Below are positions 29,551 to 45,278 of a stretch of 64,000 bases of DNA, piece by piece. The position numbers were made by a program, and so were the translations under genes. The first letter of the stretch is position 1, and each line of letters begins with the position of its first letter. The stretch is from Pseudomonas sp. UBA2684 (lineage in GTDB: Bacteria; Pseudomonadota; Gammaproteobacteria; Pseudomonadales; Pseudomonadaceae): assembly GCA_002354655.1 (NCBI GenBank), contig DELY01000048.1, forward strand, positions 180,034 to 244,033, in the 5' to 3' direction. The notes beneath the pieces were generated by a model, which made no database searches, was not told the DNA's origin, and worked only from the letters and a program-made list of their open reading frames with translations.

Positions 29551-29771
29551 CTACTAAGGGACTCTCTCGAACCAATCTGCTGACCTTACTTACAGAAACG
29601 CCCATAAGCGTCTGTCACAGCAGAAAAACCCCATGTTAGAATGCCGGCCACTTATACCTGGCCGAGCAGTTTCACCCTGCCTGCTAGACTCCACGCCAGG
29701 TGCAGCAGGCCCTTACGCCCCGCCCGCTGGTCTTTTCGATCCAACGATTGCGATACATCACATTAGGACTT

Positions 29772-30308
29772 ATGAGACTCAAGCCCTTCGCTCTGCTGCT
29801 TTGCCTCGTTTTTTTACCCGGCTTGAGTCTCGCCGCGGATAAGACTGTCTACGGCCTCAATGAATACGTCCGGTTGAATAATCTCGACCTGGAAGTGGCC
29901 GCCAAACTGGATACCGGTGCCAAGACGGCATCGCTCAGCGCCCGTGATATCAAACGTTTCAAGCGTGACGGCGAAACCTGGGTGCGTTTCTATCTGGCCA
30001 TCGACGGCACCCATGCACACCCCATCGAGCGCCCTCTGGCACGGATCAGCAAGATCAAACGACGCGCTGGCGACTATGATCCAGAGGAAGAAAAAACCTA
30101 TACCGCGCGCCCGGTAATCGAAATGGATATTTGCATGGGCCAAGCCCTGCGCAAGATTGAAGTGAACTTGACCGACCGTAGTGCATTCCAATACCCGCTG
30201 TTGATTGGCTCCGAAGCGCTCAAACGCTTCAGTGCCCTGGTCGATCCAAGCCTTAAATACGCAGCAGGGAAACCTGGCTGTGCCACCGACGCAAACCCTG
30301 GCGAGTAA
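29772..30308 (+). CDS. Periplasmic retropepsin-like aspartic protease (RloA type)
   Basis: A 178-residue precursor with a signal peptide cleaved near A21 (LSLA-AD). The mature domain has KLDTGAKTASLSA with D47-T48-G49, the single D-T-G of retropepsin-like proteases that work as dimers, and LLIGSEAL late in the chain. It belongs to a family formerly called 'ATP-dependent zinc protease' and now RloA. The next two genes (inactive transglutaminase with TM domain, ATP-grasp ligase) are its constant partners. In Pseudomonas such sets were linked to osmotic tolerance. The substrate is unknown. ATG 29772 gives the signal peptide. Confidence 0.85.
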   Translation: MRLKPFALLLCLVFLPGLSLAADKTVYGLNEYVRLNNLDLEVAAKLDTGAKTASLSARDIKRFKRDGETWVRFYLAIDGTHAHPIERPLARISKIKRRAGDYDPEEEKTYTARPVIEMDICMGQALRKIEVNLTDRSAFQYPLLIGSEALKRFSALVDPSLKYAAGKPGCATDANPGE

Positions 30309-30313
30309 TTCCC

Positions 30314-31840
30314 ATGCGCTCTCTTAACCTGCATCTGAAAGTCCTGATCACGCTACTGGTGAGCCTGGGCATTCTGATTACGGCCTACCAAATTTTCATT
30401 CTCGGCATCCCGGTGACCGAAGATGAAACAGACGACCTGTGGAATATCGATGCCAGAGTCGAGTTCCAGGCCAGCCCACGCGAGCCGGTCAAACTGCAGA
30501 TGTTCGTACCACCGCTGAACCAGGACTACGTCAGCCTGAATGAGAGCTTTATCTCGAATAACTACGGCGTGAGCATCAACCGCGCCGACGGCAACCGCAA
30601 AGTTACCTGGTCGGCACGGCGCGCCAGCGGCAAGCAAACTCTCTATTACCGCCTGGTGCTGACCAAGCGCTACAGCGGTGAGCAGGCCAAGGCCAAGGGG
30701 CCGATCTTCCGCGACAGCATCCCGGTAGAAGGCGCGGAGAAGATTGCCGCCGAAGCCCTGCTCGCGCCGATCCGCCAACACTCGGCGGACGTCGAGACGT
30801 TCATCAGCGAAACCGTCAAGCGGGTCAACAACGCAGGCGACGATAACGTCAAGCTGCTGCTCGGCGGCGATGCCTCGACGCCGAATAAAGCCAAGGCCAT
30901 CGAGCTGCTGCTGTCCATCGCCCACGTACCGATGGAGCGCGTGCACACCATCCGCCTGGCGGCCGAAATTCAGCAGAGCCCGGAACTGTGGCTACGCAGT
31001 TTCAACGGCGAAAAATGGCTGTACTTCAACCCGGAAACCGGCGAACAAGGCCTGCCTGCCGACCGCCTGGTCTGGTGGATCGGCGACGACAGCCTGGTCA
31101 ACCTCGAAGGCGGCAAGCAGGCGCAAGTCAGCTTCAGTCTGAACAACAGCGAAATGAACGCCATTCGCCTGGCCAAGCTGACCGACGAAAACACCGACGC
31201 CGATTTCCTCGAGTACTCGCTGTACGGCCTGCCGCTGCAAACCCAGCAGACCTTCATGATCATGGTGGTGATCCCCATCGGTGTGCTGGTGATCCTGATC
31301 CTGCGCAACCTCGGCGGCCTGCAAACGCTCGGTACCTTTACCCCGGTACTGATCGCCCTGGCCTTCCGCGAAACCCAGCTGGGCTTCGGCATCATCCTGT
31401 TCACCGTGATCACCGCGCTGGGCCTATCGCTGCGCTCCTACCTCGAACACCTGAAGTTGCAAATGCTGCCACGGCTATCGGTGGTGTTGACCTTCGTCGT
31501 GGTGCTGATTGCCGCAATCAGCCTGTTCAGCCACAAGCTGGGCCTGGAGCGCGGGTTGTCGGTGGCGCTGTTCCCGATGGTGATTCTGACCATGACCATC
31601 GAACGCCTGTCGATCACCTGGGAAGAACGTGGTGGCGGTCATGCTTTTAAAGTGGCCATCGGCACCCTGTTCGCCGCGACCCTGGCGCACTTGCTGATGA
31701 GCGTGCCGGAGCTGATTTACTTCGTCTTCACCTTCCCGGCGGTGCTGATGATTCTGGTGGGCTTCATGCTGGCGATGGGTCGCTACCGCGGCTACCGCCT
31801 GACCGAGCTGTTCCGCTTCAAAGCCTTCCTCAAGGACTAA
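30314..31840 (+). CDS. Inactive-transglutaminase membrane protein (RloB type)
   Basis: A 508-residue protein: an N-terminal membrane anchor (about 9-30), a periplasmic region containing a transglutaminase-like domain without an evident catalytic Cys, and seven helices from about residue 312 onward. The family is called inactive transglutaminase with a 7TM domain, or RloB. It starts five bases after the protease gene and ends four bases before the ligase gene. Membrane topology suggests it couples a periplasmic peptide-binding domain to a cytoplasmic partner, perhaps the ligase. That coupling is inference. Confidence 0.85.
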   Translation: MRSLNLHLKVLITLLVSLGILITAYQIFILGIPVTEDETDDLWNIDARVEFQASPREPVKLQMFVPPLNQDYVSLNESFISNNYGVSINRADGNRKVTWSARRASGKQTLYYRLVLTKRYSGEQAKAKGPIFRDSIPVEGAEKIAAEALLAPIRQHSADVETFISETVKRVNNAGDDNVKLLLGGDASTPNKAKAIELLLSIAHVPMERVHTIRLAAEIQQSPELWLRSFNGEKWLYFNPETGEQGLPADRLVWWIGDDSLVNLEGGKQAQVSFSLNNSEMNAIRLAKLTDENTDADFLEYSLYGLPLQTQQTFMIMVVIPIGVLVILILRNLGGLQTLGTFTPVLIALAFRETQLGFGIILFTVITALGLSLRSYLEHLKLQMLPRLSVVLTFVVVLIAAISLFSHKLGLERGLSVALFPMVILTMTIERLSITWEERGGGHAFKVAIGTLFAATLAHLLMSVPELIYFVFTFPAVLMILVGFMLAMGRYRGYRLTELFRFKAFLKD

Positions 31841-31844
31841 TGCC

Positions 31845-32831
31845 ATGTTCGGTCTGATCAAGACGTGGAAGGCCCTTGAAGCCAAAGGCATCATGGGCAT
31901 CAATCGGCGTAACGCGGACTACGTGCTGAAGTACAACAAACGGCACCTGTACCCGATCGTCGACGACAAGATCATCACCAAGGAGCGCGCCATCCAAGCC
32001 GGTATCCATGTACCGGAAATGTATGGCGTGATCTCCACCGAGAAGGAAATCGAAAAGCTCAACGAGATCATCGGCGGGCGTACCGATTTCGTCGTCAAGC
32101 CGGCACAGGGCGCCGGCGGCGACGGCATTCTGGTGATCGCCGACCGTTTCGAGGATCGCTACAAAACCGTCTCGGGCAAGATCATCAGTCACGAGGAAAT
32201 CGAGCATCAGATTTCCAGCATTCTCACCGGCCTCTACTCACTTGGCGGCCACCGTGATCGTGCATTGATCGAGTACCGGGTCACCCCCGATCAGATTTTC
32301 AAAAGCATCAGTTACGAAGGCGTGCCGGACATCCGCATCATCGTGCTGATGGGCTACCCGGTGATGGCCATGCTGCGCCTGCCGACCCGTCAATCCGGCG
32401 GCAAGGCCAACCTGCACCAGGGCGCCATCGGCGTCGGTGTCGACCTGGCCACCGGGGTGACCCTGCGCGGCACCTGGCTGAACAACAAGATCAGCAAGCA
32501 CCCGGACACCACCAACGCGGTGGATGGCGTGCAGTTGCCGAACTGGGATGGTTTCATGAGGTTGGCGGCCGGCTGCTATGAGTTGTGCGGCCTGGGCTAT
32601 ATCGGTGTGGACATGGTGCTCGACCAGGATAAAGGCCCGTTGATTCTCGAACTCAACGCCCGCCCCGGGTTGAACATCCAGATCGCCAACGACTGCGGCC
32701 TCACCCATCGCGCCCACGCAGTGGAAGCGCGCCTGGCGGACCTGCGTGCAAAAGGCATCGAGGAAACCGCAGAAGAGCGCATGCGCTTCTCCCAGGAGCT
32801 GTTCGGCCACGTGCCAGTCGCACCAATCTGA
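31845..32831 (+). CDS. Alpha-L-glutamate ligase-like ATP-grasp protein
   Basis: A 328-residue RimK-related ATP-grasp enzyme. FVVKPAQGAGGDGI (about residues 83-96) is the ATP-binding lysine and glycine loop, and LILELNARPGLNIQIAND (about 266-283) holds the Mg-binding Glu and Asn. Such enzymes attach amino acids, often glutamate, to a carboxyl group of a peptide or protein. The acceptor here is unknown. It ends the three-gene operon with the aspartic protease and RloB-type protein; a bidirectional terminator follows. Confidence 0.86.
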   Translation: MFGLIKTWKALEAKGIMGINRRNADYVLKYNKRHLYPIVDDKIITKERAIQAGIHVPEMYGVISTEKEIEKLNEIIGGRTDFVVKPAQGAGGDGILVIADRFEDRYKTVSGKIISHEEIEHQISSILTGLYSLGGHRDRALIEYRVTPDQIFKSISYEGVPDIRIIVLMGYPVMAMLRLPTRQSGGKANLHQGAIGVGVDLATGVTLRGTWLNNKISKHPDTTNAVDGVQLPNWDGFMRLAAGCYELCGLGYIGVDMVLDQDKGPLILELNARPGLNIQIANDCGLTHRAHAVEARLADLRAKGIEETAEERMRFSQELFGHVPVAPI

Positions 32832-32922: not shown

Positions 32923-34077
32923 CTAGCGCACGATAGCCAGCTCGAACGCCCCCTCATCGCTGTGGGCGTGGGTCTGCATCCCGGCCTCATCAACCGCCAG
33001 GCCCTGCAACGGGCGCTTGAACGGTTTGTTGTCCAGCGTCTGCAAGTGACGATCCTCATCGGTGGTCAGCAGCAATACATAGCGCTCCCCCGCAGCCGCC
33101 TTGACCGGTACCACACCCTCGATAAAGGCATAGCGGTACCAGGTCTCGGCATGTAACTGGTAGACCGCATCGCTGACCAAGCGCGTCGGGCGCTTGGCCT
33201 CGTCGAGAAACAGCAAAGAGGGATACACCACCTGCTTATTGGCAAAGCTGCGCACGCGCAAGCCATAGGTGCCTTGCGCACGTGGCAGTTTGAGCGCCGC
33301 GTAATAACTGCGGCCCATGGGGAAGTCCAGGCTCGGGGAAAACCGACTCAACTCTTCATAGCGCGGCTCATCGGCAGACAGGTCGGTAAACGCCTCGTCG
33401 GTCAGCTGTGCGCAGCAACGCTCGAGCAACGCCTGATGCAGTGCCCCACCAGGTTTTTCACTGCCCGCCAACAAGGCCTGCATCGCAGCCGTCGGCTGGC
33501 CATCGAGCCCCGGCAACCGCTCGGGCTTATTGGCGAATTCGACCTGACGACCTTCGCTGAAACTGATCGGCTGACTCGCCGTCCCCCGCGATGGGCCTTG
33601 CCCCGCGGCGGGCACACTGGAGTTGCGCATGCGCCCCTGCTCATCGACCCAGGTGAAATATTGCCCACCTTGCTCGCTGCGCGCATACCCCCGCCCTTCC
33701 AGCACGTCAGAATCGATGTAATCGCTGGAACGCTCACCGCTGGCCAACAACACTTCATTCCCGCCGGCCTGCTGCTGGCTACCGGCATAGAAGCTGTTTT
33801 GCAGGTTGCCGCCAGCATCGACCCAGGTGAAATAGCGGCGCTTGCTCTCGCCGCGATTCGGCGCGCCGGGCCAGCCTCCCGCACTCGCATCACGCATGCG
33901 CGCCTGGTCGCTGAGGGTGATGCGCTGCGCCGCCTGGCGTTGTTGTGCGCTGTAACGGCTGTCGACAAAGGTGTTGTGCACCCGACCGAGATCGTCGACC
34001 CAGGTCAGGTAGCGCCCGCTCGCAACCGCCACAGAGGCCACACAACTGAGGCCGAGGAACAGCAGTAGGTTACGCAT
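32923..34077 (-). CDS. FilE-like secreted protein with three WVD repeats and MalM-like domain
   Basis: A 384-residue precursor; signal peptide near residues 1-20 (AVAS-GR). Three copies of a Y-(L/F)-TWVD-x-x-G-x-x-x-N motif occur at about residues 23-38, 82-97 and 140-155, spaced 58-59 residues and reminiscent of the DUF4124 unit. The C-terminal half (about 215-384) resembles MalM-type periplasmic proteins with LDFPMGRSYYAALKLP. It matches the 'putative pilus assembly protein FilE' group next to a FadL-type and C39 gene. ATG 34077 has GGGGAG upstream. The function is unproven. It is last in the operon. Confidence 0.7.
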   Translation of the reverse strand: MRNLLLFLGLSCVASVAVASGRYLTWVDDLGRVHNTFVDSRYSAQQRQAAQRITLSDQARMRDASAGGWPGAPNRGESKRRYFTWVDAGGNLQNSFYAGSQQQAGGNEVLLASGERSSDYIDSDVLEGRGYARSEQGGQYFTWVDEQGRMRNSSVPAAGQGPSRGTASQPISFSEGRQVEFANKPERLPGLDGQPTAAMQALLAGSEKPGGALHQALLERCCAQLTDEAFTDLSADEPRYEELSRFSPSLDFPMGRSYYAALKLPRAQGTYGLRVRSFANKQVVYPSLLFLDEAKRPTRLVSDAVYQLHAETWYRYAFIEGVVPVKAAAGERYVLLLTTDEDRHLQTLDNKPFKRPLQGLAVDEAGMQTHAHSDEGAFELAIVR

Positions 34078-34094
34078 AACGGGCTCCCCTTCTC

Positions 34095-35687
34095 CTAGAA
34101 TGTGGTGCGGTACGTCAGGGCAAACACATAGGCTTTGACGGTGGTTTTTATATCGAGGTCGGCGTACGGGTTGTACACCATGCTGTCGATGGTCGAACAG
34201 TTGGTGTTGCAACTGGAGCGCGCGGGAATGTCCTGCTTGCTCACCAGGTAGTTGAAACCGATATCGATCACCGTGTCTTTATCCCATTGGTAGCCGGCGC
34301 CCAAGCCATATAGTTGCGCATCGCCAAGCGGCGCCAGCACGTCGGCCTTGTCGCCAGGGATGGCCGAAGGACGTGGCTCATAACCCGCGCGCAGGCTCAG
34401 GCGGTCGTTGACCTGGTACTCGACGCCCAGCGCCCAACTCCACACCGACTCATAGCCGCGATCGAGAATGATGCTGGTTGCGGTGGCATTTTCCGGGGAA
34501 AAAATACTGGCGATGGTCAGCACGTCCAACTGGCGGTCGAACTCCAGCTCGAACGAGTCCCAGGCCGCATAGTCGGTCCATTTCACATCGAGGTTGATCT
34601 GCCACTGCGGGTGCGGCTTGAGCTTGATGCCCGTGGCGAAATGCGCCGGGTAGGTCATGTCCAGCGAGACATTACCCTGCTCTTTGTCGAACACTCCATC
34701 GGGAGTGATGCTGTTGAAGATCGCACCGATCAGCGAGCTGTCCAGCCCCTGCCAGAAACCCTGCCAGTCTTGGGAGTAGTCCACCGTGTACTTGCCTTGC
34801 AGGCGCATCTTGGCTTCGCTCTGGTACACCGCGCCAAGCGCGAACCAGTCGTTCGGCTCCCAGAGAAAGCCGACGTTCCAGGTGGGCGACAAGCTTTGCT
34901 GCATGTCGATATCGATGTTGGCAATATCGGTGAACGGTCCCAGGTCGCCGCCGCACAGGTTGAGCAGCACCTCGAAGGGGTTACCGTCGACGGTGCACAG
35001 CGCCTCCTGGGCCGCACCGGTCAGCCCCGTCAGCACGCCCGGCGCGCGAAAATCCTGGTTGAGCGCCATGGCTTGGTGGGAGAAGCCGATCGACAAGCCG
35101 ACCGAGAGCTGATCGTTGACCTGATAGGCCACCGAGGGTGAAAAATAGGTCAGGCGCTGCAGCACCAGCTCCTTGCCCTGGTAGCGCGCTGGGTCGTCGT
35201 CCTCGCGGGAGAAACCTAATGCCTGCGGGGTATAGACGTTGGTGGCGAAAGTGAATTTCGAGCCCGGCGGGTTGATCGACACGCCCGCCAGCGGTGCAAA
35301 CAGCACCGGCACTTCCGTCGCCCCGCCGATGCCCGGCAAGTACATCGCCGAGGCGGTGGTGCGGCTGGAGGAATTGGCCACCGAGTCATCGTTCAGGCCA
35401 AAAAAATTGCTGCCGTAGTCGTCAGGCGCATCGAAGTCGGCGCGGATATCCATGATCCCGGTGATGAATTTGATCGTGCTTTGCCGGCCTTTGAGCTTGG
35501 TCAGCGCCGCCGGGTTGTAGTGCACCGCGTCGATCCCGCTGAAGTCCGCAGTAATCGCATTGCCCATGGCCATGGCTTTCGGGCTGCCTATGGTCAGGTT
35601 TTGCGCCAGCTGCGCCTGCGCGGCGCCTGCCCAGAGCAAAACGATCCCGGTAATCGCCCGTGCCAGCGGCGAAATATGCATCGTCAT
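34095..35687 (-). CDS. FadL/OmpP1-type outer-membrane protein (FilD-like)
   Basis: A 530-residue precursor. After the signal peptide (about 1-26, AQA-QL), LAQNLTIGSPKAMAMGNA followed by DFSGIDAVHYNPAAL is the N-terminal hatch region of FadL-type barrels, and the alternation of aromatic residues to the C-terminal Phe indicates a beta-barrel. FadL proteins import hydrophobic molecules. The neighbours suggest it corresponds to FilD of the Acinetobacter fil set. Two extra Cys (SSCNTNCS, about residues 498-504) may form an external disulfide. Start either 35687 or the in-frame ATG two codons later. Confidence 0.82.
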   Translation of the reverse strand: MTMHISPLARAITGIVLLWAGAAQAQLAQNLTIGSPKAMAMGNAITADFSGIDAVHYNPAALTKLKGRQSTIKFITGIMDIRADFDAPDDYGSNFFGLNDDSVANSSSRTTASAMYLPGIGGATEVPVLFAPLAGVSINPPGSKFTFATNVYTPQALGFSREDDDPARYQGKELVLQRLTYFSPSVAYQVNDQLSVGLSIGFSHQAMALNQDFRAPGVLTGLTGAAQEALCTVDGNPFEVLLNLCGGDLGPFTDIANIDIDMQQSLSPTWNVGFLWEPNDWFALGAVYQSEAKMRLQGKYTVDYSQDWQGFWQGLDSSLIGAIFNSITPDGVFDKEQGNVSLDMTYPAHFATGIKLKPHPQWQINLDVKWTDYAAWDSFELEFDRQLDVLTIASIFSPENATATSIILDRGYESVWSWALGVEYQVNDRLSLRAGYEPRPSAIPGDKADVLAPLGDAQLYGLGAGYQWDKDTVIDIGFNYLVSKQDIPARSSCNTNCSTIDSMVYNPYADLDIKTTVKAYVFALTYRTTF

Positions 35688-35705
35688 AAGGTTTTCGCTC
35701 GCCGC

Positions 35706-36710
35706 TTATTCAGCCTTCAGGCCTTTGATATCCAAGGGCATGGACAGCCCCAGCAATACATCCGGCGAGTCTTCGGTCATGCCGAATCCGGCATTCACGT
35801 TGATGATGTAATCCGGCGACGTACGCAGCCCCAGCGAGAAGTTCATCACCGCACTGGTCTGCTCGGTGCCTTCCAAACTGCCATCGGCAAAGGTGAAGGT
35901 CGGCGCCAGGTTATGCGACATCTGGTAGGAGGCTGCCAGCGACACGTCATAGGACAAGGCATAGGCGAAGCCCATGCTGAACGACAGAGCCGAGCCCGGC
36001 TCGACCTCTTGCAACAAGCGACCGCCGCGCACCTGATTGATCGTGGTGACCGGCAGGTTGTAGGTGTAACCGAGTGAGCCGAACAGCACGACCGGGTCGA
36101 TCACATAGGACAGGTTGGCGCCAAAACCGAGACTGTAGTAGCCGCTGCCGGTGGCCAGATCGCTCTGCGTATTGATGTCGTACGGGCTTTCGCCGGTGGG
36201 TAGACCGAGGCTGGCGTAGAGCGTGGTAACCGGCTTGCCGCGCAACGAGGTCCACGGCTGCCAACGCAGGCTCGCGGACACATCGCCCAGGCTGTAGGCG
36301 TTGAGGTCACGCTCGGTGTCGTACTTGGCAATGAACGGCAGACGTACGCTGAAGGTCAGGTTGTCCCACACGCCGTAATCGAAGGTGAAGGAGTTGGTGA
36401 AGGTGTGCTGCGCCTCGCTTTGCCCCACCACGCTGAACACATTGTTGCCCGTGCGCACCGTCTCGATCAGGGTGTCGCGCACCAACGAATAATCGAAGCC
36501 GTAGGTCAACGTCCGCTCGCCCTTCTTGAGCAAGGTGTAGCTTTTCTCGGCGGCCTGAAACACCTCTTCCAGCGCCTTAGCGCTGTCGGCGTCGTCTTCC
36601 TGTTTGCTCAACGCATCGCGGGCTTGATCGACCGAAGCCTCATCAGCCAGTAGCGGCGCACTGACGACCCACGTCAGCATGGCGAGCCACGCACACCCCG
36701 AAACCCTCAT
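35706..36710 (-). CDS. Outer-membrane beta-barrel protein (FilC-like)
   Basis: A 334-residue precursor with a signal peptide (about 1-22, LLA-DE), a short charged helical stretch (about 25-60, DQARDALSKQEDDADSAKAL), then repeating beta strands with aromatic belts such as LTYGFDYSLVRDT and SLRWQPWTS. It resembles transporter-like barrel proteins next to the C39 peptidase in fil-type clusters. There is no enzymatic motif. It begins 68 bases after the peptidase gene and ends 18 bases before the FadL-type gene. Confidence 0.65.
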   Translation of the reverse strand: MRVSGCAWLAMLTWVVSAPLLADEASVDQARDALSKQEDDADSAKALEEVFQAAEKSYTLLKKGERTLTYGFDYSLVRDTLIETVRTGNNVFSVVGQSEAQHTFTNSFTFDYGVWDNLTFSVRLPFIAKYDTERDLNAYSLGDVSASLRWQPWTSLRGKPVTTLYASLGLPTGESPYDINTQSDLATGSGYYSLGFGANLSYVIDPVVLFGSLGYTYNLPVTTINQVRGGRLLQEVEPGSALSFSMGFAYALSYDVSLAASYQMSHNLAPTFTFADGSLEGTEQTSAVMNFSLGLRTSPDYIINVNAGFGMTEDSPDVLLGLSMPLDIKGLKAE

Positions 36711-36778
36711 GGCACTGCCCCCAGATAGTTATTGTTATGCCGGGCAATTACTTGCGGCAAAGCGACTTCTATGCGTCG

Positions 36779-37540
36779 TCATTTACGGCGGATGTAACGA
36801 ATATCGCCGCCGGAACCCAGCTCAGTGGCCTGGTTCTCGGTGAATTTGGTAATTTGTGGAAACTCGCGAAACGCCAGCAAGCTGATGGTGCGGTCATCGA
36901 TGATGCGCAAATCGCGCTCGCTCAAGGCCAGGGCGTTCGGTGGTTCCTGGCCATTGGGGAAAATCACGAACAGCACGTTCTGATCCCAGATTTCCTCGAA
37001 GCGGCTACGGGTGAAACTGATATTGCCCAGTGCTGGATCGGCGACGAACACGTGGTCGTTGTAGACATCGCGCACCACCACGAAGTGCTTGAAGCCGGCG
37101 TACTCGATCGGCACGATCGCGGGATGCTCCAGCTCATCCAAGTCGGCAAATGCCGCGCGAAAACCACCACTCTTGTAGCCCAACGCAGTGACGAAACGCT
37201 TCATGTCGAGCAATGAAAAACCGCGCCGCTCGACGATCTTGTCGGCCTCGCCAAAACGCAGCAGGCCTTCCATCACCTGGCGTTCCTCCAGATTGCGACC
37301 GAGGAAGTAGTCCAACAGGGTGGTCAGCGCAGCCGAACCGCAGCTGTAGTCGTAGGCCTGGCGAATGACGTTGCGAAATTGCAGCTGATTCATCGGCTCC
37401 AACGTCACCGACTCACGCAATGGCCCGTTCGGCGCCAGCGCCTGGGTGAGGTTGACCGTACCCTGCGGCTGCGGCTTGGTGTCCACCGCCTCGGTAAAGC
37501 CCCACATGCCGATCAGGCTGCCCAGCAAAATCTCGACCAT
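36779..37540 (-). CDS. C39-family cysteine peptidase (FilB-like)
   Basis: A 253-residue protein with an N-terminal hydrophobic segment (about 3-15) that could be a signal or anchor. The catalytic set is complete: Q61 and C67 in RQAYDYSCGSAA, H152 in GFKHFVVV and D168 in VFVADPALG. C39 peptidases normally cut double-glycine leaders and are fused to an ABC exporter. This one stands alone beside secreted and outer-membrane proteins, so it probably acts in the periplasm on a local partner. ATG 37540 is chosen; a GTG eight codons upstream is the alternative. Confidence 0.8.
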   Translation of the reverse strand: MVEILLGSLIGMWGFTEAVDTKPQPQGTVNLTQALAPNGPLRESVTLEPMNQLQFRNVIRQAYDYSCGSAALTTLLDYFLGRNLEERQVMEGLLRFGEADKIVERRGFSLLDMKRFVTALGYKSGGFRAAFADLDELEHPAIVPIEYAGFKHFVVVRDVYNDHVFVADPALGNISFTRSRFEEIWDQNVLFVIFPNGQEPPNALALSERDLRIIDDRTISLLAFREFPQITKFTENQATELGSGGDIRYIRRK

Positions 37541-37628
37541 TCGCCCAACGCACTCCCCACACACAAGAGAAAAGTCTTACCGGCCGAGGCCGATAAGACT
37601 TTGGCAAAACTAGACCCGCTGAGTGAAC

Positions 37629-38072
37629 TCAGTGACCCCAGATTTTGACTGTGGTGCCGGCCATGTTCATGTCGCTGATGGCCAAGGAGCCGATGCTGGC
37701 AGCGCTGGTGTCGCCGATTTTGATCGCGCCAACGCTAACCTGACCGGTGATGGTCGGCAGGCTGATCTGCAATTGCTGGGTATCGGTGCCACCGATATCC
37801 GTGGTCACCACATCAACCAATACCGGGGCGGTGTCGGAGATGTTGAAGCCGGTGAACGCGATGGTTTCCAGGCGCAGGGAGCCGCCGTTAGCGTCGCCGT
37901 CGGTGTACACCACGCTGCCGATCGAACCGTTGAAGCTACCGGAGATGCTGATGCCGTCCTGACCGGTCACGGAGGACAGGGCGCTGTCATCCATGGCTTG
38001 CAGATCGGCCTGAGCCATGAATGGAGTAGCCAGAACAGCGGCAGCCAAGGCCAGTTGCTTGAAAGTTTTCAT
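37629..38072 (-). CDS. FilA-like secreted protein (DUF6160 type)
   Basis: A 147-residue precursor; signal peptide cut after A22 (AQA-DL). The mature N-terminus LQAMDDSALSSVTGQDGIS is the signature seen in FilA proteins of Acinetobacter and in related Pseudomonas proteins. The rest is rich in Gly, Ser, Thr, Asp and hydrophobic beta strands, with no Cys, fitting an extracellular or outer-membrane-associated structural protein. ATG 38072 has GGAG upstream. It is the first gene of the fil-like set and lies downstream of the two MalT-type regulators. Confidence 0.75.
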   Translation of the reverse strand: MKTFKQLALAAAVLATPFMAQADLQAMDDSALSSVTGQDGISISGSFNGSIGSVVYTDGDANGGSLRLETIAFTGFNISDTAPVLVDVVTTDIGGTDTQQLQISLPTITGQVSVGAIKIGDTSAASIGSLAISDMNMAGTTVKIWGH

Positions 38073-38317
38073 TGTTGTTATCTCCACAGTTCACTATTGG
38101 GTTATCCCCGGAGGCACTGTCCTGGACTCCTGTCTCGGGCAGTTGAACCGGCTCACGCCGCTCACCAGGTCTGGCGCTGCTTCCTTAGTCGCGCCGAGCT
38201 TGGATTCGTGAAGCACCGTGCTTCTCGTCCTGGCTACAAAACTACTGGTGCTGCCCCCGGCTGCCAGCCCATCCAAGGGATGGAGCGCCGTCGCGCGGTC
38301 AAGCAAGGCCTCTGGCA
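38073..38317 (-). promoter_or_regulatory. Upstream region of the fil-like operon
   Basis: 245 bases separate the end of the first MalT-type regulator from filA. It is long enough for a regulated promoter. No convincing terminator, sigma-54 or sigma-70 element could be placed. If the regulators bind nearby, their site should lie here. Confidence 0.4.
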
Positions 38318-41041
38318 TCAGGCTTCGCTTAATAACCCCAAACTTTTCCCCTTCAATACCGCCTGGGTGCGGCTGCGCACCCCCAGCTTGGCGAACAGGT
38401 TATGCAGGTGCCATTTGATCGTGGCTTCCGAAAGATGCACCGCCTGGGCGATTTCGCGGTTCGACAAACCTGCCGCCACGAACCGCAAAATCTCTCGCTC
38501 ACGATGGCTAACATCTTGATTTTCATCGAAAGTTTCAGGATCTACAGCCAGCCGACGGCACTGCTCGCGCAACTGCTCGGCAACCCCTTGCCAGGCCAGA
38601 GCACGCTTCGGCTCGGCAACGCGCCAGGCATCCCAAAGCGGCAGCAGCCACAAGGCGTCATCCTGGAACACCCGCCGATAGCCGCTGTTCCAGGCGTCTT
38701 CGAGGGTTGGCTGGAACAAGGCAAAGGCCTTGTCGCTGTTACCTTTGCGCCAATACGCCACAGAAAGTAACAAGGACAAACGCAAGCGGCGATCGCGCTG
38801 GTGCTCCGCCGTCTGTTTGGCCAGGCAGGCTTCCAGCACCGCCTGCGCTTTGTCCGCCCGCCGCTCGGATAACGCCAGGCGTGCCTCGCAGAGCACCAAC
38901 GCAGTGCTGGCATCGGTGTAGCGCCCCGCTGGCAATACCGCCAGGTGACGCTGCAACTGCAAACAGATGCGCTCGGCTTCGTTGGGGCGGCGCAACCACA
39001 GGAGAAACTGCACCTTGCAGCTCATGCCCAAGGCGAACACCCGCTCGTAACCCGGACCATGCAGGCTGCCCAACCACTCATCGAGCTCCGCCAAGGCCTG
39101 CTCGCCTTCGCCGGCAAAGAACCGCGCCCGCGCCAGCACCAGCTTGCCGCGGCTGATCAACTCGATAGGCGTGGCCACATCGCGCCAGGTGGTTGCCAGC
39201 GGCAACTCGGCGAGGATCGCCGCGTGCCGGTCCTGCTCGTAAAGCAGATCGGCATAGGCCAGTGACAGCGGCCCTCCCACACGGCTGCGGCGGCCGAACA
39301 CCTGCTCGACCCGAGCCCGCGCATTTTCTGCGAGAACCCGACCGCGCTCGGGCTCGCCCAATTCTTTGCAGATCAGCGACTCGATCAGGCTGACCACCAC
39401 ATGCAGGTATTCACTTTCGGTCTGCCGCAGGTTGTCGCGTGCCACGGCAATCGACTTGCCTGCCTCGCCGAACTCGCCGAGCAAGGCGTAGGCCGCTGCT
39501 TGCACACAGGACAGGCTGGCACGGAATACCGGCTGGTTATCCGGCACCAGACCAAGCCAATGCCGCGCGACCTTCAAACAGCTTTCGAGTTTGTCTTGGT
39601 ACAACATCACCAGCGCCTTGAGCACCTGCGCCGCAGCCAGCAACTCGGCCAGGCCGAAATGCAGCAGCTTGCCGCGCCCTTGCAGCAGTCGCGTGCTGAC
39701 CTCCTCGATCAGTGCTTCGGCCTCCGCGTATTTCTGCTCAAAGGCCAACTGCCAGGCATAGAAAATCTGGAACACCGGGTGCTCGCGGATCACTTCGGAC
39801 GGCACGTCCTTGAGAATCGCCAGGATGCCGTAGACCCGATTGCCGGCGATCAACCGCGCCCCCTGGCGTTCGAGCAGCTCCGCGGCAAACGTATAATCGC
39901 GGGCACGCAGGGCGTACTTGATCGATTTATCCGCCAGGTCGCGCCCTTCGCACCAGCGCGCTGCGGCATGCAGCAAATGCGTCGGATCGCCCTGCTTGGC
40001 CAAACGCCCCTGGAGAAACTCGGCGAACAAATGGTGGTAACGGAACCACTCGCCCTGCGCGTCCAGCGGAATGACGAACAGCTGTTCCTTGAACAGACGC
40101 TGCAACATCTGCTCCCCATCGCCACGGCCGGTCAGGGCGTTGCACAGTTCGGCACTGAACTCATCGAGCACCGAGGTTTGCTCGAGAAAGTGCTGCTGCT
40201 CCGCGGGCAGGCTATCGAGCACATCCTCGGCCAGGTAGTCGGCGATGTTGCGCTCGGTGCCAGACAAACCGGCCAGAAACAGGCTGCGGTCGGGATGCCG
40301 AACCAGGGCCAGCGCCACCAGGTGCAGCGCGGTAATCCAGCCTTCGGTGCGGGCATGCAGCGCGTCAAGTTCGGCCGGGCTCAGCGGCAACTGCTTGAGC
40401 TCATGAAAATACGCCTCGGTCTCGGCGCGCGTGAGGCGCATGTCCTCGGCCTTGATCCACAGCGCCCAGGGGTCGCTGGCTGACGACTGATCGACAAAAC
40501 GCGGGTTGTAGCGCGTGCTGCCGATCATCCGCACATTGGCCGGCACACGTGTGACGAAGGACTGGATCAGCGGGCCGAGATCGGCATGGCGGATACGATG
40601 AAAGTCATCGAAAACCAGATAAAGCACGCCTTTGACCCGCTTGAGGTCGGCGATGAACGAGTCGAGCAGCACCTCGTTGGGCAGGCTCAGGTCATCGCGC
40701 AACAAGCGCGCGGTGTTTTCCCCGAAACCCGGCAGTTGTGCGTCGACGGCGGCGATCAGGTACTGCAACAGGCGTTGCGGTTCGCTATCGGCTTCATCGC
40801 ATGACAGCCAGGCCACGCTGGCGCCCGCGGCTTGCAAACGCAGGCGAAACTGGCTGAGCACCGTGCTTTTGCCAAACCCTGCGGGGGCGCTCAGCAGAAT
40901 CAGGCGCTGCTCACGGGCGCTGAACAGCCGCTCGATCAACGCGGCGCGGGCAAGCAGAGGACGCCCAGCGACCTCCGCCGGAAACAACTTGGTGCGCAGC
41001 AACGGCATGCAACGCAGGCGAGGCAATGTTTGGCTGGTCAT
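38318..41041 (-). CDS. MalT-type ATP-dependent LuxR regulator (downstream copy)
   Basis: A 907-residue STAND-ATPase activator. Walker A SAPAGFGKST is at residues 51-60, followed by Walker B-like LYLVFDDFH near 138. A long helical TPR-like sensor region follows (about 350-820), then a C-terminal LuxR helix-turn-helix (about 840-900) with LSNREIAQAVHLSEATIKWH. MalT-type proteins bind an inducer, oligomerise with ATP and activate transcription. The start overlaps the stop of its upstream paralogue. The position ahead of the fil-like genes implies it controls them. The inducer is unknown. Confidence 0.88.
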   Translation of the reverse strand: MTSQTLPRLRCMPLLRTKLFPAEVAGRPLLARAALIERLFSAREQRLILLSAPAGFGKSTVLSQFRLRLQAAGASVAWLSCDEADSEPQRLLQYLIAAVDAQLPGFGENTARLLRDDLSLPNEVLLDSFIADLKRVKGVLYLVFDDFHRIRHADLGPLIQSFVTRVPANVRMIGSTRYNPRFVDQSSASDPWALWIKAEDMRLTRAETEAYFHELKQLPLSPAELDALHARTEGWITALHLVALALVRHPDRSLFLAGLSGTERNIADYLAEDVLDSLPAEQQHFLEQTSVLDEFSAELCNALTGRGDGEQMLQRLFKEQLFVIPLDAQGEWFRYHHLFAEFLQGRLAKQGDPTHLLHAAARWCEGRDLADKSIKYALRARDYTFAAELLERQGARLIAGNRVYGILAILKDVPSEVIREHPVFQIFYAWQLAFEQKYAEAEALIEEVSTRLLQGRGKLLHFGLAELLAAAQVLKALVMLYQDKLESCLKVARHWLGLVPDNQPVFRASLSCVQAAAYALLGEFGEAGKSIAVARDNLRQTESEYLHVVVSLIESLICKELGEPERGRVLAENARARVEQVFGRRSRVGGPLSLAYADLLYEQDRHAAILAELPLATTWRDVATPIELISRGKLVLARARFFAGEGEQALAELDEWLGSLHGPGYERVFALGMSCKVQFLLWLRRPNEAERICLQLQRHLAVLPAGRYTDASTALVLCEARLALSERRADKAQAVLEACLAKQTAEHQRDRRLRLSLLLSVAYWRKGNSDKAFALFQPTLEDAWNSGYRRVFQDDALWLLPLWDAWRVAEPKRALAWQGVAEQLREQCRRLAVDPETFDENQDVSHREREILRFVAAGLSNREIAQAVHLSEATIKWHLHNLFAKLGVRSRTQAVLKGKSLGLLSEA

Positions 41042-43749
41042 TCAAGCAGACTCAGCTCGCGGGCACGGCGGATGGCTTGCGTCCGATTGCGTACCTTGAG
41101 CTTCTCGTAGATGTTATGCAGATGCCATTTGACGGTTCCCAGGGCCAGCGACAGCTGCTGGCCGATCTCGTCATTGGACATGCCCTGCGCCGCCAGACAG
41201 ACCACTTCGCGCTCGCGATCGGTCAGCCCTTCCTCAAGCACTTCCAGCGCCTGGCGCGCACCCTGGCCTGGCCAAATCGCCAACAGCGCCCGAATGAAAC
41301 CCTGCAGTGCCGGTTGCCGCTCGGCCGCTTCGAGCTGCTGCAGGAGCAGACGAATCGCTTCACCTTCCTCGACAAACAGGCTGCGCACACCTTCGCGCTC
41401 GGCACCGATCAAGCACTGCACCAGCAGGCTTTGCGCCCGCTCCTGATACCCCAGGCGCTGGTAGCTCAGCGCCGCGAGCAGGTCCAGACGCAAGCGTTGC
41501 AAGCCGTGCCAATCGTCGAGCAACAAGCCGCGCAACTGAGTGATCTCATGCAGTGCTTCGCTGTAATGGCCGCGCGCCTGCTGCAAACGAATGCGGGTCA
41601 ACCCCTGCACCCAGAGCACCGGATTGAAGCGCATGTGCTGGTAATGCCCCGCCAGCTTGGGCCAATCGACGCTTTTCAGACGTTGCTCGGCGCGCTTGAA
41701 GCGATCCGTCGCGGGTTCTTGCAGGATCTGCGCGATTTCATCGCCGACCGCCTGGGCATAGAAACGCCAGGACTGGTTGCGCGCCGCCAGGTTCTGCATC
41801 AGCACCAGAGTCGCGAAGGCATCCTTGGGGTTGTCCTGCATGCGCTGTACATGCGCCACGCACAACATGCCTTGGGCATACAGGTCGATCGGGTTGATCA
41901 CATCGACGGTGGCCAAGGCCCAGCGCAGCCGCTCGTCGATGCCATCGAGGCGCCCCTGGTGATAGGCAATCAGGGCTTCGGTAATGGTCGGCAAGGCCAA
42001 GGCGCGGGATTTCTCCGCGAACCAGGGAATGATCCGCGCACGCAGCTGGCCAAACAGCAACTCCGCCTGCTTGATCTGCCCCTGCTCCAGACACAGGAGT
42101 ATCTCGACATTGGCCAGTTGCATGTCCAGGTAGCGGCCCTCGAGGAAGTGATTGCGCTGCTGCGCCAGAGCCAGCAGACGCCGCGCCGCTTCGGGCTGAC
42201 CCATCATCACGCTGGCCAGGGCGCCGACAATCAACATCGCCACTTCGAGAAAGGCGGTGTGCTGCCCCAGTTGCACTTCGACCCTGCGCGCCAGGGTCAC
42301 GCAGGTCTCCAGGTCATCCTTCTGCAAGGCGATAACGGCCTTGATCGCCAGGGTCGCCAGCAGCTTGTCGCTTAGCGGGCCACTGCTCTTGACCTGCCCC
42401 CAGCGCTGCAACAGCTCATCGAGCATGCGGTTGGCTTCCGGCAAGCCCAACTCGGCGGCACGCGTCCAGACATCGGCCAAGACCAATACCGGGAAGCGCT
42501 CGGCAATCTCGTCGGGCACATGCTGACGCCACTTGTAGATCAGGTTCAGCTGGCCGCGGTTGATCAGTTCCAGGCCGCAGCCGTCAACCAGTGCAGCGAG
42601 CATTTCCGGGTCTTCGGCCAGGCAGGCATGCTCGATGGCCAGGTTCTGCATGTGGTGGTTGGTGAACCACAAACTGGCATTGAAATGCAGCTGTTTGAGG
42701 CGCTCCGGATCGCGGTCTTGCAAACGTTTACGGAGAAACTCGGCAAACAGGTTGTGGAAGCGGTACCACTGCCGCTCACGGTCCAGTGGCAGCAAGAACA
42801 GCTGCATTGACTCCAGCTCTTCCAGCAAGCGCTGCCCGTCCTGGCGCCCGGTCAAGGCATTGGCCAAGTCGCCACTCAGTTGCTGCGCAACGCCCAAGGC
42901 CAGCAGCAGCTCCTGCTTATCCGCCGGCAACTGTTCGAACACCGTGCGCAGCAAGTAGTCGCCGACCGCCGCCTGATCGGTGCCCATATCGGCCATTTGC
43001 GCGTAAGCCTGCGGCTGATGGCGCAGCCACAGGCTGGCCAGGTGCACACCGACCATCCAACCCTCGGTGTGGCTGTACAGCGCACTGAACGCCACGGCAT
43101 CCAATTGCAGGCCACTGCGTGCCAGGTAATCGCGGGTTTCCGCCTTGCTCAGGCGTAGGTCCTGCTCACCGACCTCCACCAACAGCCCCTTGGCGCGCAG
43201 CGTCGCCAAGTTCAACGCCGGTTGCGAACGGCTGCCGATGGCCAGCGTAAAGCTGCCTGGGGCGAACTTGATGAGGCGATTGAGCGCGGCGAGCAACTCC
43301 GCATCCTGAATCAGGTGCAGGTCATCGAGCACCAGCAGCAAAGGCTGCTCCAGCGCCGCCAGATCCACCAGCAAGCTTTCCATGACAGCCGCCACCGGCA
43401 CGCGCATGGTGTTTTGCAGGTAGGCCAGCGCTTCTTCGCCGAGCCCCGGCAACAACGTGGCGAGCGCCTCGATCAGTTGCAGGAAAAACCGGGCGGGCTC
43501 GTCGTCATCGGGGCCCAGCGATAGCCAGGCAACCGCACCGCCCACGTCCAAGCGAGACTGCGCCAGCGCCGCCAAGGCGCTGGTCTTGCCGAAACCGGCA
43601 GGTGCGGAAAACAGTAAAAGACGGGCATGCGGATGAGCGGACAACGCCGCCTCAACCTGAGGCCGCGCCAAGTAATCGGCAGACGCCTGAGGAGGCGTGA
43701 GTTTCGAGCGCAGAAGGCTTCCAGCGGCTGGATCTACAACGACATCCAT
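41038..43749 (-). CDS. MalT-type ATP-dependent LuxR regulator (upstream copy)
   Basis: A 903-residue paralogue of the gene that follows it. Walker A SAPAGFGKTS is at residues 48-57 and LLLVLDDLH near 136. The helical sensor domain occupies about 340-820, and the LuxR domain (about 835-895) contains GMSNDEIGQQLSLALGTVKWH in parts. Sequence divergence from the downstream copy is large outside these motifs, so they may respond to different ligands or form a hetero-assembly. The operon begins here, divergent from pabB with 164 bases between. Confidence 0.88.
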   Translation of the reverse strand: MDVVVDPAAGSLLRSKLTPPQASADYLARPQVEAALSAHPHARLLLFSAPAGFGKTSALAALAQSRLDVGGAVAWLSLGPDDDEPARFFLQLIEALATLLPGLGEEALAYLQNTMRVPVAAVMESLLVDLAALEQPLLLVLDDLHLIQDAELLAALNRLIKFAPGSFTLAIGSRSQPALNLATLRAKGLLVEVGEQDLRLSKAETRDYLARSGLQLDAVAFSALYSHTEGWMVGVHLASLWLRHQPQAYAQMADMGTDQAAVGDYLLRTVFEQLPADKQELLLALGVAQQLSGDLANALTGRQDGQRLLEELESMQLFLLPLDRERQWYRFHNLFAEFLRKRLQDRDPERLKQLHFNASLWFTNHHMQNLAIEHACLAEDPEMLAALVDGCGLELINRGQLNLIYKWRQHVPDEIAERFPVLVLADVWTRAAELGLPEANRMLDELLQRWGQVKSSGPLSDKLLATLAIKAVIALQKDDLETCVTLARRVEVQLGQHTAFLEVAMLIVGALASVMMGQPEAARRLLALAQQRNHFLEGRYLDMQLANVEILLCLEQGQIKQAELLFGQLRARIIPWFAEKSRALALPTITEALIAYHQGRLDGIDERLRWALATVDVINPIDLYAQGMLCVAHVQRMQDNPKDAFATLVLMQNLAARNQSWRFYAQAVGDEIAQILQEPATDRFKRAEQRLKSVDWPKLAGHYQHMRFNPVLWVQGLTRIRLQQARGHYSEALHEITQLRGLLLDDWHGLQRLRLDLLAALSYQRLGYQERAQSLLVQCLIGAEREGVRSLFVEEGEAIRLLLQQLEAAERQPALQGFIRALLAIWPGQGARQALEVLEEGLTDREREVVCLAAQGMSNDEIGQQLSLALGTVKWHLHNIYEKLKVRNRTQAIRRARELSLLE

Positions 43750-43913: not shown

Positions 43914-45278
43914 ATGCCTACTTGCCTTGTACACGCTCTGCCCTATTGTGCTGACCCTGCCGCCTATTTCAGCGCCATCTGCCATGCACCCGGCGCGGTG
44001 CTGCTAGACGCCGGGCGCCCGGCGGCCCAGCGTGGACGCTATGACCTTATGAGCGCTTGGCCATTGGCAGAGCTGGCACCAACGCCCGACGAATCGGCCA
44101 ACGACTTCCTGCAACGCCTACGCGACGCCCTTGCCACGCTGGGCACGGCCGAACCGCCCGAGGATTGTCCGTTACCATTCGTCGGCGGCTTGATCGGTTA
44201 CCTGGCGTATGACTTCGGTCGGCGCCTGGAAGTGCTCCCGCAACAGGCGATTGACGACCTCGGTTTGGGTGACGCGCGCTTCGGCGTCTATGCCTGGGCC
44301 TTGATCAGCGATCACCACCGCGGCAGCAGTCAATTGCTGTTTCATCCGGCGCTGGCCGCTGCGGAACGACAACGCCTGATCACCCTGTTCAGCTCGCCGA
44401 ACAGGCAACCGCGGCAACCGTTCCGTTTACTGCAAGCCTTTCAGGCAGAGCTCGATGAGCCAGGCTATCGCCAGGCTATCGCACGCATCCAGGCGTACAT
44501 CCAGGCGGGCGACTGCTACCAGGTGAACTTCGCCCAGCGCTTTCGCGCGCACTATCAAGGCGATCCCTGGACCGCCTACCAGGCGCTGCGGGCGGCCTGC
44601 CCGACGCCATTCGCTGGCTATCAGCGCTTGCCGGACAACGGTGCGATCATCAGCCTGTCGCCCGAGCGCTTTCTACGGCTCAGCCAGGGCCAGGTAGAAA
44701 CCCGTCCCATCAAAGGCACCCGACCGCGCGATGCAGACCCGCAGCAAGACGCCGCACAGGCCGACGCGCTGCTGAGCAGCCCCAAAGACCGCGCCGAGAA
44801 CCTGATGATTGTCGACTTGCTACGCAATGACCTGGGACGCAGTTGCCGCATTGGCACGGTGCGCGTACCGGAGTTGTTCGCGCTGGAAAGCTACCCGAAC
44901 GTGCACCACCTGGTCAGCGCGGTGACCGGCGAGCTGGCCGCCGGCAAGGATGCGCTGGACTTGATCGCCGGTAGTTTCCCAGGTGGTTCGATCACTGGGG
45001 CGCCAAAGATTCGCGCCATGCAGATCATCGATGAGCTGGAACCGACACGCCGTGCGCTCTACTGCGGCTCGCTGCTGTACCTGGATGTGCGCGGCGAAAT
45101 GGACAGCTCAATCGCCATCCGCAGCCTACTGGCCAAGGACGGGCAGATCAGTTGCTGGGGCGGCGGCGGGATTGTCGCCGACTCGGACTGGCAGGCCGAG
45201 TACCAGGAGTCGCTCACCAAGGTGAAGGTCTTGCTCGAAACCCTGGAGCGCTTGGGTAACGGCGAAAGCAAACCCTAG
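43914..45278 (+). CDS. pabB: Aminodeoxychorismate synthase component I
   Basis: A 454-residue enzyme that aminates chorismate in para-aminobenzoate and folate synthesis. RPIKGTRPR with K267 is the PabB-type (rather than anthranilate synthase) active-site motif, and SFPGGSITGAPKIRAMQIIDEL in parts and GGGGIVADSDWQAEY mark the chorismate-binding core. The amidotransferase partner is encoded elsewhere. The gene is divergent from the MalT-type regulators and in the same neighbourhood as thrH in P. aeruginosa. The ribosome site is weak, so the start is moderately certain. Confidence 0.94.
   Translation: MPTCLVHALPYCADPAAYFSAICHAPGAVLLDAGRPAAQRGRYDLMSAWPLAELAPTPDESANDFLQRLRDALATLGTAEPPEDCPLPFVGGLIGYLAYDFGRRLEVLPQQAIDDLGLGDARFGVYAWALISDHHRGSSQLLFHPALAAAERQRLITLFSSPNRQPRQPFRLLQAFQAELDEPGYRQAIARIQAYIQAGDCYQVNFAQRFRAHYQGDPWTAYQALRAACPTPFAGYQRLPDNGAIISLSPERFLRLSQGQVETRPIKGTRPRDADPQQDAAQADALLSSPKDRAENLMIVDLLRNDLGRSCRIGTVRVPELFALESYPNVHHLVSAVTGELAAGKDALDLIAGSFPGGSITGAPKIRAMQIIDELEPTRRALYCGSLLYLDVRGEMDSSIAIRSLLAKDGQISCWGGGGIVADSDWQAEYQESLTKVKVLLETLERLGNGESKP

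Follow-up and report, generated by a model that had tools for sequence, protein, structure and literature searches.

A fil locus of Pseudomonas that probably makes a pilus-like fibre and exports it by a Fap-type route

What does a fil locus make? The Fil proteins are called a 'putative pilus system' in NCBIfam and in passages of a study that treats FilF as an antigen. The window analysed here, a stretch of 64,000 nucleotides from Pseudomonas sp. UBA2684 (assembly GCA_002354655.1, contig DELY01000048.1, positions 180,034 to 244,033), contains such a locus as seven open frames on the minus strand. Searches of the open reading frames against Pfam and NCBIfam confirmed the content proposed in an earlier sequence-only reading: two MalT-type LuxR regulators, FilA, a lone C39 peptidase, two barrels (one of the FadL type) and a MalM-like FilE, all on the same strand. 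No usher, chaperone, pilin or pilus ATPase family was found among the locus proteins in either library, and a chaperone-usher or type IV pilus was rejected for this reason. The further claim of that reading, that the locus encodes nothing resembling a pilus component, stands for the chaperone-usher and type IV families but not for FilA, which is kin to the subunit of a pilus-like fibre (PDB: 9xfv). In our view the locus probably makes a pilus-like fibre and exports it by a Fap-type route, using parts of known kinds (a C39 peptidase, a FapF-type channel and a fibre).

In the proposed mechanism, FilA would cross the inner membrane by the Sec pathway and signal peptidase would remove residues 1–22. 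The 16-residue leader exposed in this way, which has the spacing of a double-glycine leader, would dock on FilB at the periplasmic side, where FilB would cut after G-Q. Mature FilA would then exit through FilC, a FapF-like barrel, and assemble into fibres outside the cell, with FilD (FadL family) and FilE as putative accessory parts. The two MalT-type regulators would turn on the filA operon from a palindrome upstream of filA, and the FilB-FilC pair probably handles further Sec-exported proteins, scattered over the genome, that carry the same leader. The homologies, the register of the leader, the co-occurrence of the families, the conservation of the upstream element and the lack of signal peptide and leader in 9xfv were all computed here.

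A FapD-FapF-like pair in the fil locus

The filB gene (36779–37540; this and all other features of the locus lie on the minus strand) encodes a C39 cysteine peptidase of 253 amino acids that consists of the C39 domain only (PF03412, 74 bits), with no transporter domains. Its best NCBIfam match is FilB (292 bits against a curated cut-off of 475) and its second is FapD (expectation value E 2e-35; 122 bits against a cut-off of 330). The putative catalytic residues Q61, C67, H152 and D168 are invariant in 21/21 aligned sequences, and the Cys and His align with those of the PCAT1 peptidase. The neighbouring filC gene (35706–36710), which encodes the barrel left unnamed in the sequence-only reading, has no convincing Pfam match; in NCBIfam it matches FilC (329 bits against a curated 630) and then FapF (E 3e-16; 59 bits against 700). 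When a FilC profile built from 21 sequences was searched against the PDB sequences with matches admitted to E 1, FapF was the sole one (E 5e-25). By these comparisons FilB is FapD-like and FilC is FapF-like, a relationship that the sequence-only reading missed, and the two are a candidate periplasmic maturase and a candidate export channel.

FapD works in the periplasm and its Cys is required for secretion of FapC (PMC5557850, PMC6173800). Its substrate was described as unclear in 2017, with FapE as a candidate (PMC5557850), and as still undetermined in 2018 (PMC6173800). Homologues of fapD and fapF are colocalised in five further phyla (PMC6173800), so the pair as such is already known; its identity with FilB-FilC was not found in print in the open-access literature, nor was any paper that connects Fil with Fap, or a C39 peptidase with DUF6160, in a search that did not cover the 9xfv publication. 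A periplasmic location of FilB is suggested by the analogy with FapD and by the distant FilB of L183, whose N-terminus resembles a signal peptide. FilB shares the C39 family and the leader spacing with the peptidase-containing ATP-binding cassette transporters PCAT1 and LahT, but differs from them in lacking transporter domains, and its putative leader follows a Sec signal peptide and ends in G-Q rather than G-G. One related locus (L184 6865–8860, genome G301) has FilB followed by a 162-amino-acid protein, OmpA-like by eye, and by a FilC with a long N-terminal extension.

The order FilA-B-C-D-E and the family matches of FilA to FilD are shared with the Fil system of Acinetobacter (NCBIfam NF050077-NF050081), but the locus described here scores below the curated cut-offs, has no FilF beside it and has two added regulators. 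The Fil models of NCBIfam are exception models with curated cut-offs, and since these are not reached for FilA (63 bits against 220), FilB, FilC or FilD (545 against 970) we regard the locus as the same gene set in diverged form. As the sequence-only reading had it, FilF is not beside FilE: in a search confined to the locus and its neighbours, filE is followed by a convergent ATP-grasp gene (31845–32831).

FilA, its leader and the 9xfv fibre

The filA gene (37629–38072) encodes a DUF6160 protein of 147 amino acids (98 bits in Pfam, above the cut-off of the family) and is a candidate gene for a fibre subunit; its start was taken as the ATG at 38072, with a GTG farther upstream in the list of open reading frames. 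Read by eye, the protein begins with a Sec signal peptide of residues 1–22 ending in AQA (38007–38072), and this is directly followed by the double-glycine-type leader DLQAMDDSALSSVTGQ (residues 23–38; 37959–38006) and then by DG, with the predicted cut between Q38 and D39. The consensus of C39 leaders is L(-12)xxxE(-8)L(-7)xxxxG(-2)G(-1), in which positions -10 to -4 are helical and -4 is likely to contribute to specificity (PMC6959990). For comparison, 70 FilA hits chosen by phmmer were tabulated, anchored only at G-Q. T/S-G-Q is present in 68/70, and among these 68 the residue at -12 is M in 48 and L in 20, at -7 it is L in 54 and M in 14, and at -4 it is V in 46, T in 10, I in 8, A in 2 and M and F in one each. 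The knot positions -12 and -7 therefore fit the double-glycine pattern in 68/68, as does the G at -2, and -4 mostly fits. A signal-peptidase-like site, [AVSTGC]-x-A, lies within one residue of the start of the leader in 40 of the 42 leaders that were used for modelling. An AlphaFold model of FilA without its signal peptide has a helix at residues 7–14 (leader positions -10 to -3), at low confidence there, and eight strands after it, with a mean predicted local distance difference test score of 80.5 and a predicted template modelling score of 0.56. The peptidase and the leader together make it very probable that FilA is processed, as the sequence-only reading supposed of its secreted protein.

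FilA matches in sequence and fold the subunit of PDB 9xfv, a 'Pilus-like-alpha' fibre from karst cave material that was released on 2026-02-18 and whose subunit is a DUF6160 relative, although that subunit is longer (173 residues against 109 for FilA). Chain A of 9xfv begins exactly after the Gln that matches Q38 of FilA and is numbered from 38. Since 9xfv is thus a DUF6160 fibre subunit without signal peptide and leader, FilA resembles a fibre subunit. The last three residues of FilA, W-G-H (37632–37640), are invariant in 32/32 aligned FilA sequences and appear as W-A-H in the 9xfv chain, which suggests a structural or assembly role for this end of the protein.

FilB could instead be a leader-binding chaperone that works with another cutting enzyme, or the leader could be a docking tag for FilC. 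Catalytically inactive C39-like domains occur in some type I systems (PMC5557850), and Q at -1 is unusual; the conservation of the putative catalytic Gln, Cys, His and Asp in all 21 FilB sequences, the absence of the leader from 9xfv and the requirement of FapD for its catalytic Cys (PMC5557850) make both versions improbable.

Leader proteins beyond the operon and the comparison with Fap

Co-occurrence of the families was measured in two draws of genomes. In a draw of 245 genomes from the order, FilB (at least 194 bits, next hit 148), FilC (at least 232 bits, next 118) and DUF6160 (over its Pfam cut-off) each occur in 34 genomes. These are the same 34 for all three, and they belong to 8 taxonomic families; the set for DUF6160 was obtained by elimination, as the 35 genomes listed less G109. 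In a draw of 276 genomes from the class, FilB (260 bits or more, with the next hit at 156) and DUF6160 (E <= 1e-3) are found in the same six genomes, five of which pass the Pfam cut-off and two of which (G000 and G089) are also in the order draw. FilB proteins score at least 194 bits on their own model and other C39 hits at most 156 bits, and genomes with weaker C39 hits only, FapD-type hits among them, had no DUF6160 match at E <= 1e-3 in either draw. We attach no probability to this co-occurrence because the genomes are not independent samples.

A model of the signal peptide and leader only gave 220 hits in the 34 genomes with FilB, against 1 in the 211 without it. Among the 150 leader hits listed, 24 are no more than 10 kb from FilB and 126 are elsewhere, and at least 32 genomes have a distant hit. 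Two other accounts of these counts were considered: that the leader motif is a chance feature of signal peptides was rejected on the single leader hit in 211 FilB-free genomes, and that the co-occurrence is a by-product of FilA in the operon was rejected on the 126 listed hits that lie elsewhere. In two distant genomes, G414 and G513, FilB and FilC are side by side with neither FilA nor FilD found in the stretches fetched around them (14 and 8 kb), and 15 and 17 PF19657 (DUF6160) hits are spread over the genome. Among 21 leader proteins recovered from these two genomes by pattern, the signal peptide and leader are alike in 171/210 pairs and the bodies in 10/210. Ten leader proteins from several genomes all match DUF6160 at the N-terminus only, five of them over the cut-off, with no other Pfam match below E 0.1 and only weak rows in NCBIfam (the best, to the N-terminus of FilA, at E 0.001; the others at E 0.045 or above). 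Judged from these comparisons, the leader is probably a sorting signal rather than a domain. Dispersed relatives fit the C39 consensus more closely than FilA does, for example MTDAELQAVSGQ and LSEQELSEIDGA (L237), and two of them (L090, L206) have Ala at -1.

In the genome of the window itself (G000) the leader model gave five hits, of which one is FilA, another is on contig 37 and three are on contig 38. The last three are adjacent genes (contig 38, 8.9–12.1 kb; L235 1400–4583) for proteins of 365, about 523 and 171 amino acids, each with a signal peptide and leader (LQPMDDRELAEVTGQ, MQVLSDEQMGEVSGA and LRPLGEEELQGVSGQ), and the gene next to this row is leuA-like. Rows of leader genes are also found in other FilB genomes (L207, L208, L237).

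Several observations weigh against export of FilA by FilB and FilC as set out above. The FilA leader has Gln at -1 rather than Gly or Ala, and in most sequences no Glu at -8 (Ala in 39/68); in FilA paralogues beside filA in Parendozoicomonas (L061 4830–6281, L087 4068–5546), A-Q replaces G-Q. The precursor gene and organism of 9xfv were searched for and not found, with the cut read from the chain start and the numbering only, and 9xfv was not matched by a longer FilA of another family. The N-terminus of FilB is a hydrophobic stretch without positive charge, and FilA is not beside FilB in 11 of the 79 related loci described below, three of which (L065, L071, L081) have less than 1.1 kb of sequence before FilB. 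In A. baumannii the type II system releases FilF, a lipoprotein of the cell surface (PMC12802150), which means that FilC is not the exit for every fil product in that species. Among genomes without FilB, G109 has a DUF6160 match under the cut-off (E 6e-5) and G188 the one leader-model hit (E 1.4e-4). The leader model (A3) is itself circular: its 42 sequences were picked by a pattern fixed at -15, -12, -11, -10, -7, -4, -2 and -1 from FilB-bearing loci and genomes, including the draw members G000, G089, G102, G148 and G259, and PF19657 itself spans the leader. The parts of the evidence that are not circular are the absence of the leader from FilB-free genomes, the FilA table anchored at G-Q and the start of the 9xfv chain.

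The sequence-only reading had preferred a ligand-sensing envelope system, in which the barrels take up a hydrophobic molecule, the regulators sense the ligand and FilA, once processed, serves as a surface or carrier protein. FilD is of the FadL family, with PA1764 as its orthologue in P. aeruginosa; several fil loci come from genera known as hydrocarbon degraders, and MalT-type regulators are usually activated by a ligand. PA1764 has been listed by bioinformatics as a FadL homologue of P. aeruginosa (PMC6137939), and a FapF-like barrel need not export, given that such barrels resemble the COG4313 hydrophobic uptake channels (PMC6173800). We nevertheless consider this unlikely, as FilB, FilC and DUF6160 go together in 34/34 genomes, FilD is missing from the stretch around FilB and FilC in the two distant genomes, and FilA is kin to a fibre subunit. 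With fibre export as the preferred function, the FadL kinship of FilD may still leave room for a lipid or hydrocarbon cue.

The Fap system offers a second view of the same pair. Among the Fap proteins, FapE alone shows complete processing of the N-terminus (PMC5557850), and passages of a 2025 review, which give no motif, state that FapD is thought to process the N-terminus of FapE and FapF (PMC12822426). Twenty FapD-type neighbourhoods were fetched, of which 11 have the peptidase and the barrel on one strand, and leaders were counted by eye. In 10/11 of the same-strand loci, the open reading frame that separates FapD from FapF has a leader in the register of the FilA leader, with R-G-R/K at its end (the eleventh has no proper open reading frame), and in these ten (L210, L211, L212, L215, L216, L220, L224 and L226–L228) the leader ends directly before Y or F; that of L220 has Gln at -4. 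Each of the seven that were scanned matches the FapE model, and two exceed its cut-off. The comparison points to FapE as a substrate of FapD, with R-G-R/K as the candidate cleavage site and the cut after R/K, which agrees in kind with the published N-terminal processing of FapE. Elsewhere, two signal-peptide proteins near a FapD-type peptidase (L225 4508–5005 and 5170–5676, minus strand) carry LTSAQMDGVSAG and LSAPQLDAVTAG, possibly a third flavour of leader ending in A-G, and one genome (G335, L218) has seven hits to lone FapD-type C39 peptidases.

Fil and Fap are alike in having a C39 peptidase near a FapF-like barrel and a leader of the same register, which in Fap is on FapE, but the fil locus lacks the FapB, FapC and FapE families, its subunit is a DUF6160 protein and its leader proteins are many and dispersed. 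That Fil is a diverged functional-amyloid operon, with FilA an amyloid like FapC, would account for the FapD-like and FapF-like parts. However, NCBIfam has models of FapB, FapC and FapE, and none of them matched a protein of the locus at E <= 0.1; FilA is modelled as one eight-strand domain and is kin to a fibre named pilus-like; and two genomes (G008, G038) hold both kinds of system. We regard a diverged Fap operon as highly improbable, and an ordinary Fap operon was rejected on the missing FapB, FapC and FapE matches.

Export of FilA through FilB and FilC could be one case of a general Gram-negative two-signal route, in which a Sec signal peptide and a double-glycine-type leader are used with a periplasmic C39 peptidase and a FapF-type barrel. 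Fil (G-Q) and Fap (FapE, G-R or G-K) would be its branches, and the proteins matured and exported by FilB and FilC would number from two to seventeen or more in a genome, with bodies that are in many cases unrelated. The evidence leans towards this wider route, with less assurance than for the locus itself, and part of it points the other way. Only two (L218, L221) of the other nine FapD neighbourhoods have a nearby candidate leader protein, and those of L209 and L218 showed no barrel. According to passages of the 2017 paper, Fap proteins lack a canonical C39 sequence, no FapE peptides were detected in the first ~70 residues, where the leader described here ends near 40, and FapF was also considered as a target of FapD (PMC5557850). 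If true, the route names a substrate for FapD, a function for DUF6160 and an export route for the pilus-like-alpha fibre. Its cleavage rule at the level of residues brings the FapD substrate and the role of Fil within reach of a single peptide assay, connects a recently solved fibre from the environment with a gene locus, and needs only the genome sequence to predict a set of exported proteins. No description of a Sec signal and double-glycine-type leader serving dispersed proteins was found in the open-access literature searched, which again excludes the 9xfv publication.

Conservation, accessory genes and regulation

Using FilB, 79 related loci were collected from named genomes and their neighbouring genes were found by phmmer. 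FilC is downstream of FilB in 79/79 (gap of at most 490 bp), FilD is present in 78, FilA in 68 and FilE in 68, an arrangement so widely kept that the gene set is not a matter of chance. FilD (34095–35687), a barrel of the FadL/OmpP1 family (Toluene_X, 331 bits), and FilE (32923–34077) are putative accessory proteins that may guard, anchor or gate the channel. FilE was assigned by its MalM (100 bits) and DUF4124 (31 bits) domains and by position, as no locus protein matches the NCBIfam FilE model at E <= 0.1.

The regulators LuxR1 (41038–43749; 903 amino acids) and LuxR2 (38318–41041; 907 amino acids) overlap by 4 bp and are 32% identical; each matches GerE at 65–66 bits and the MalT model at 340 and 290 bits, respectively, against a cut-off of 537. 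LuxR2 is present in 53/79 loci and both regulators in 52/79 (L015 is cut by a contig end). Those with LuxR2 are of the Pseudomonas type (Pseudomonas, Serpens, Atopomonas and metagenome-assembled genomes, with P. aeruginosa PA7 included), while the 26 regulator-free loci are Bermanella-, Thalassolituus-, Oleispira-, Alcanivorax-, Kistimonas- and Parendozoicomonas-type, among others. As the fil genes occur without regulators in these 26, the regulators are not part of the fil core, which is wider than its regulators.

The intergenic distances are 245 bp between LuxR2 and filA and then 88, 68, 18 and 17 bp down to filE. Within the first of these an alignment of 23 sequences revealed the conserved element CCATCCCTTGGATGGGCTGGCAG (38261–38283), with the inner palindrome CCATCC-GGATGG, as a candidate operator of the filA operon. 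It is found with at most 4 mismatches in 51/53 loci with LuxR2, the two Atopomonas loci being the exceptions, and in 0/26 loci without. The only exact copy of its 19-base core in the genome is at this site, and one further copy with 2 mismatches lies on contig 22; in shuffles of the window 0 are expected. The palindrome is the best candidate for a regulator site. The pairing of regulators and fil genes made in the sequence-only reading is upheld by these counts, LuxR2 adjoining the fil genes in 53/53 Pseudomonas-type loci, in a set that was picked by FilB. In the gap between filA and filB, a 14-pair hairpin with a T-rich tail (37571–37602) is a candidate attenuator that would fit the production of more subunit (filA) than machinery (filB-E); a hairpin satisfying the same script rule is present in 40/63 loci tested.

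The locus is flanked on one side by pabB (43914–45278), named by its family, and on the other by a convergent RloA-RloB-ATP-grasp set (29700–32831; NCBIfam names), which converges on filE and is kept in most Pseudomonas-type loci. The pabB gene is still within the fetched stretch in 21/26 regulator-free loci. The locus of P. aeruginosa PA7 (L033) is an orthologue with the same gene order from pabB through RloA, and the P. aeruginosa locus tags are presumably PA1759/PA1760. Literature on the P. aeruginosa locus is thin: loss of function of PA1760 appears once in a resistance-variant table of a Pseudomonas paper, and the main text of another retrieved paper mentions neither tag. Near the end of the fil operon, two further related loci encode large exported proteins, one of 679 amino acids with a very weak match to FilF (L231 10868–12907; E 0.0065) and one of 953 amino acids with a choice-of-anchor U domain (L232 4523–7384).

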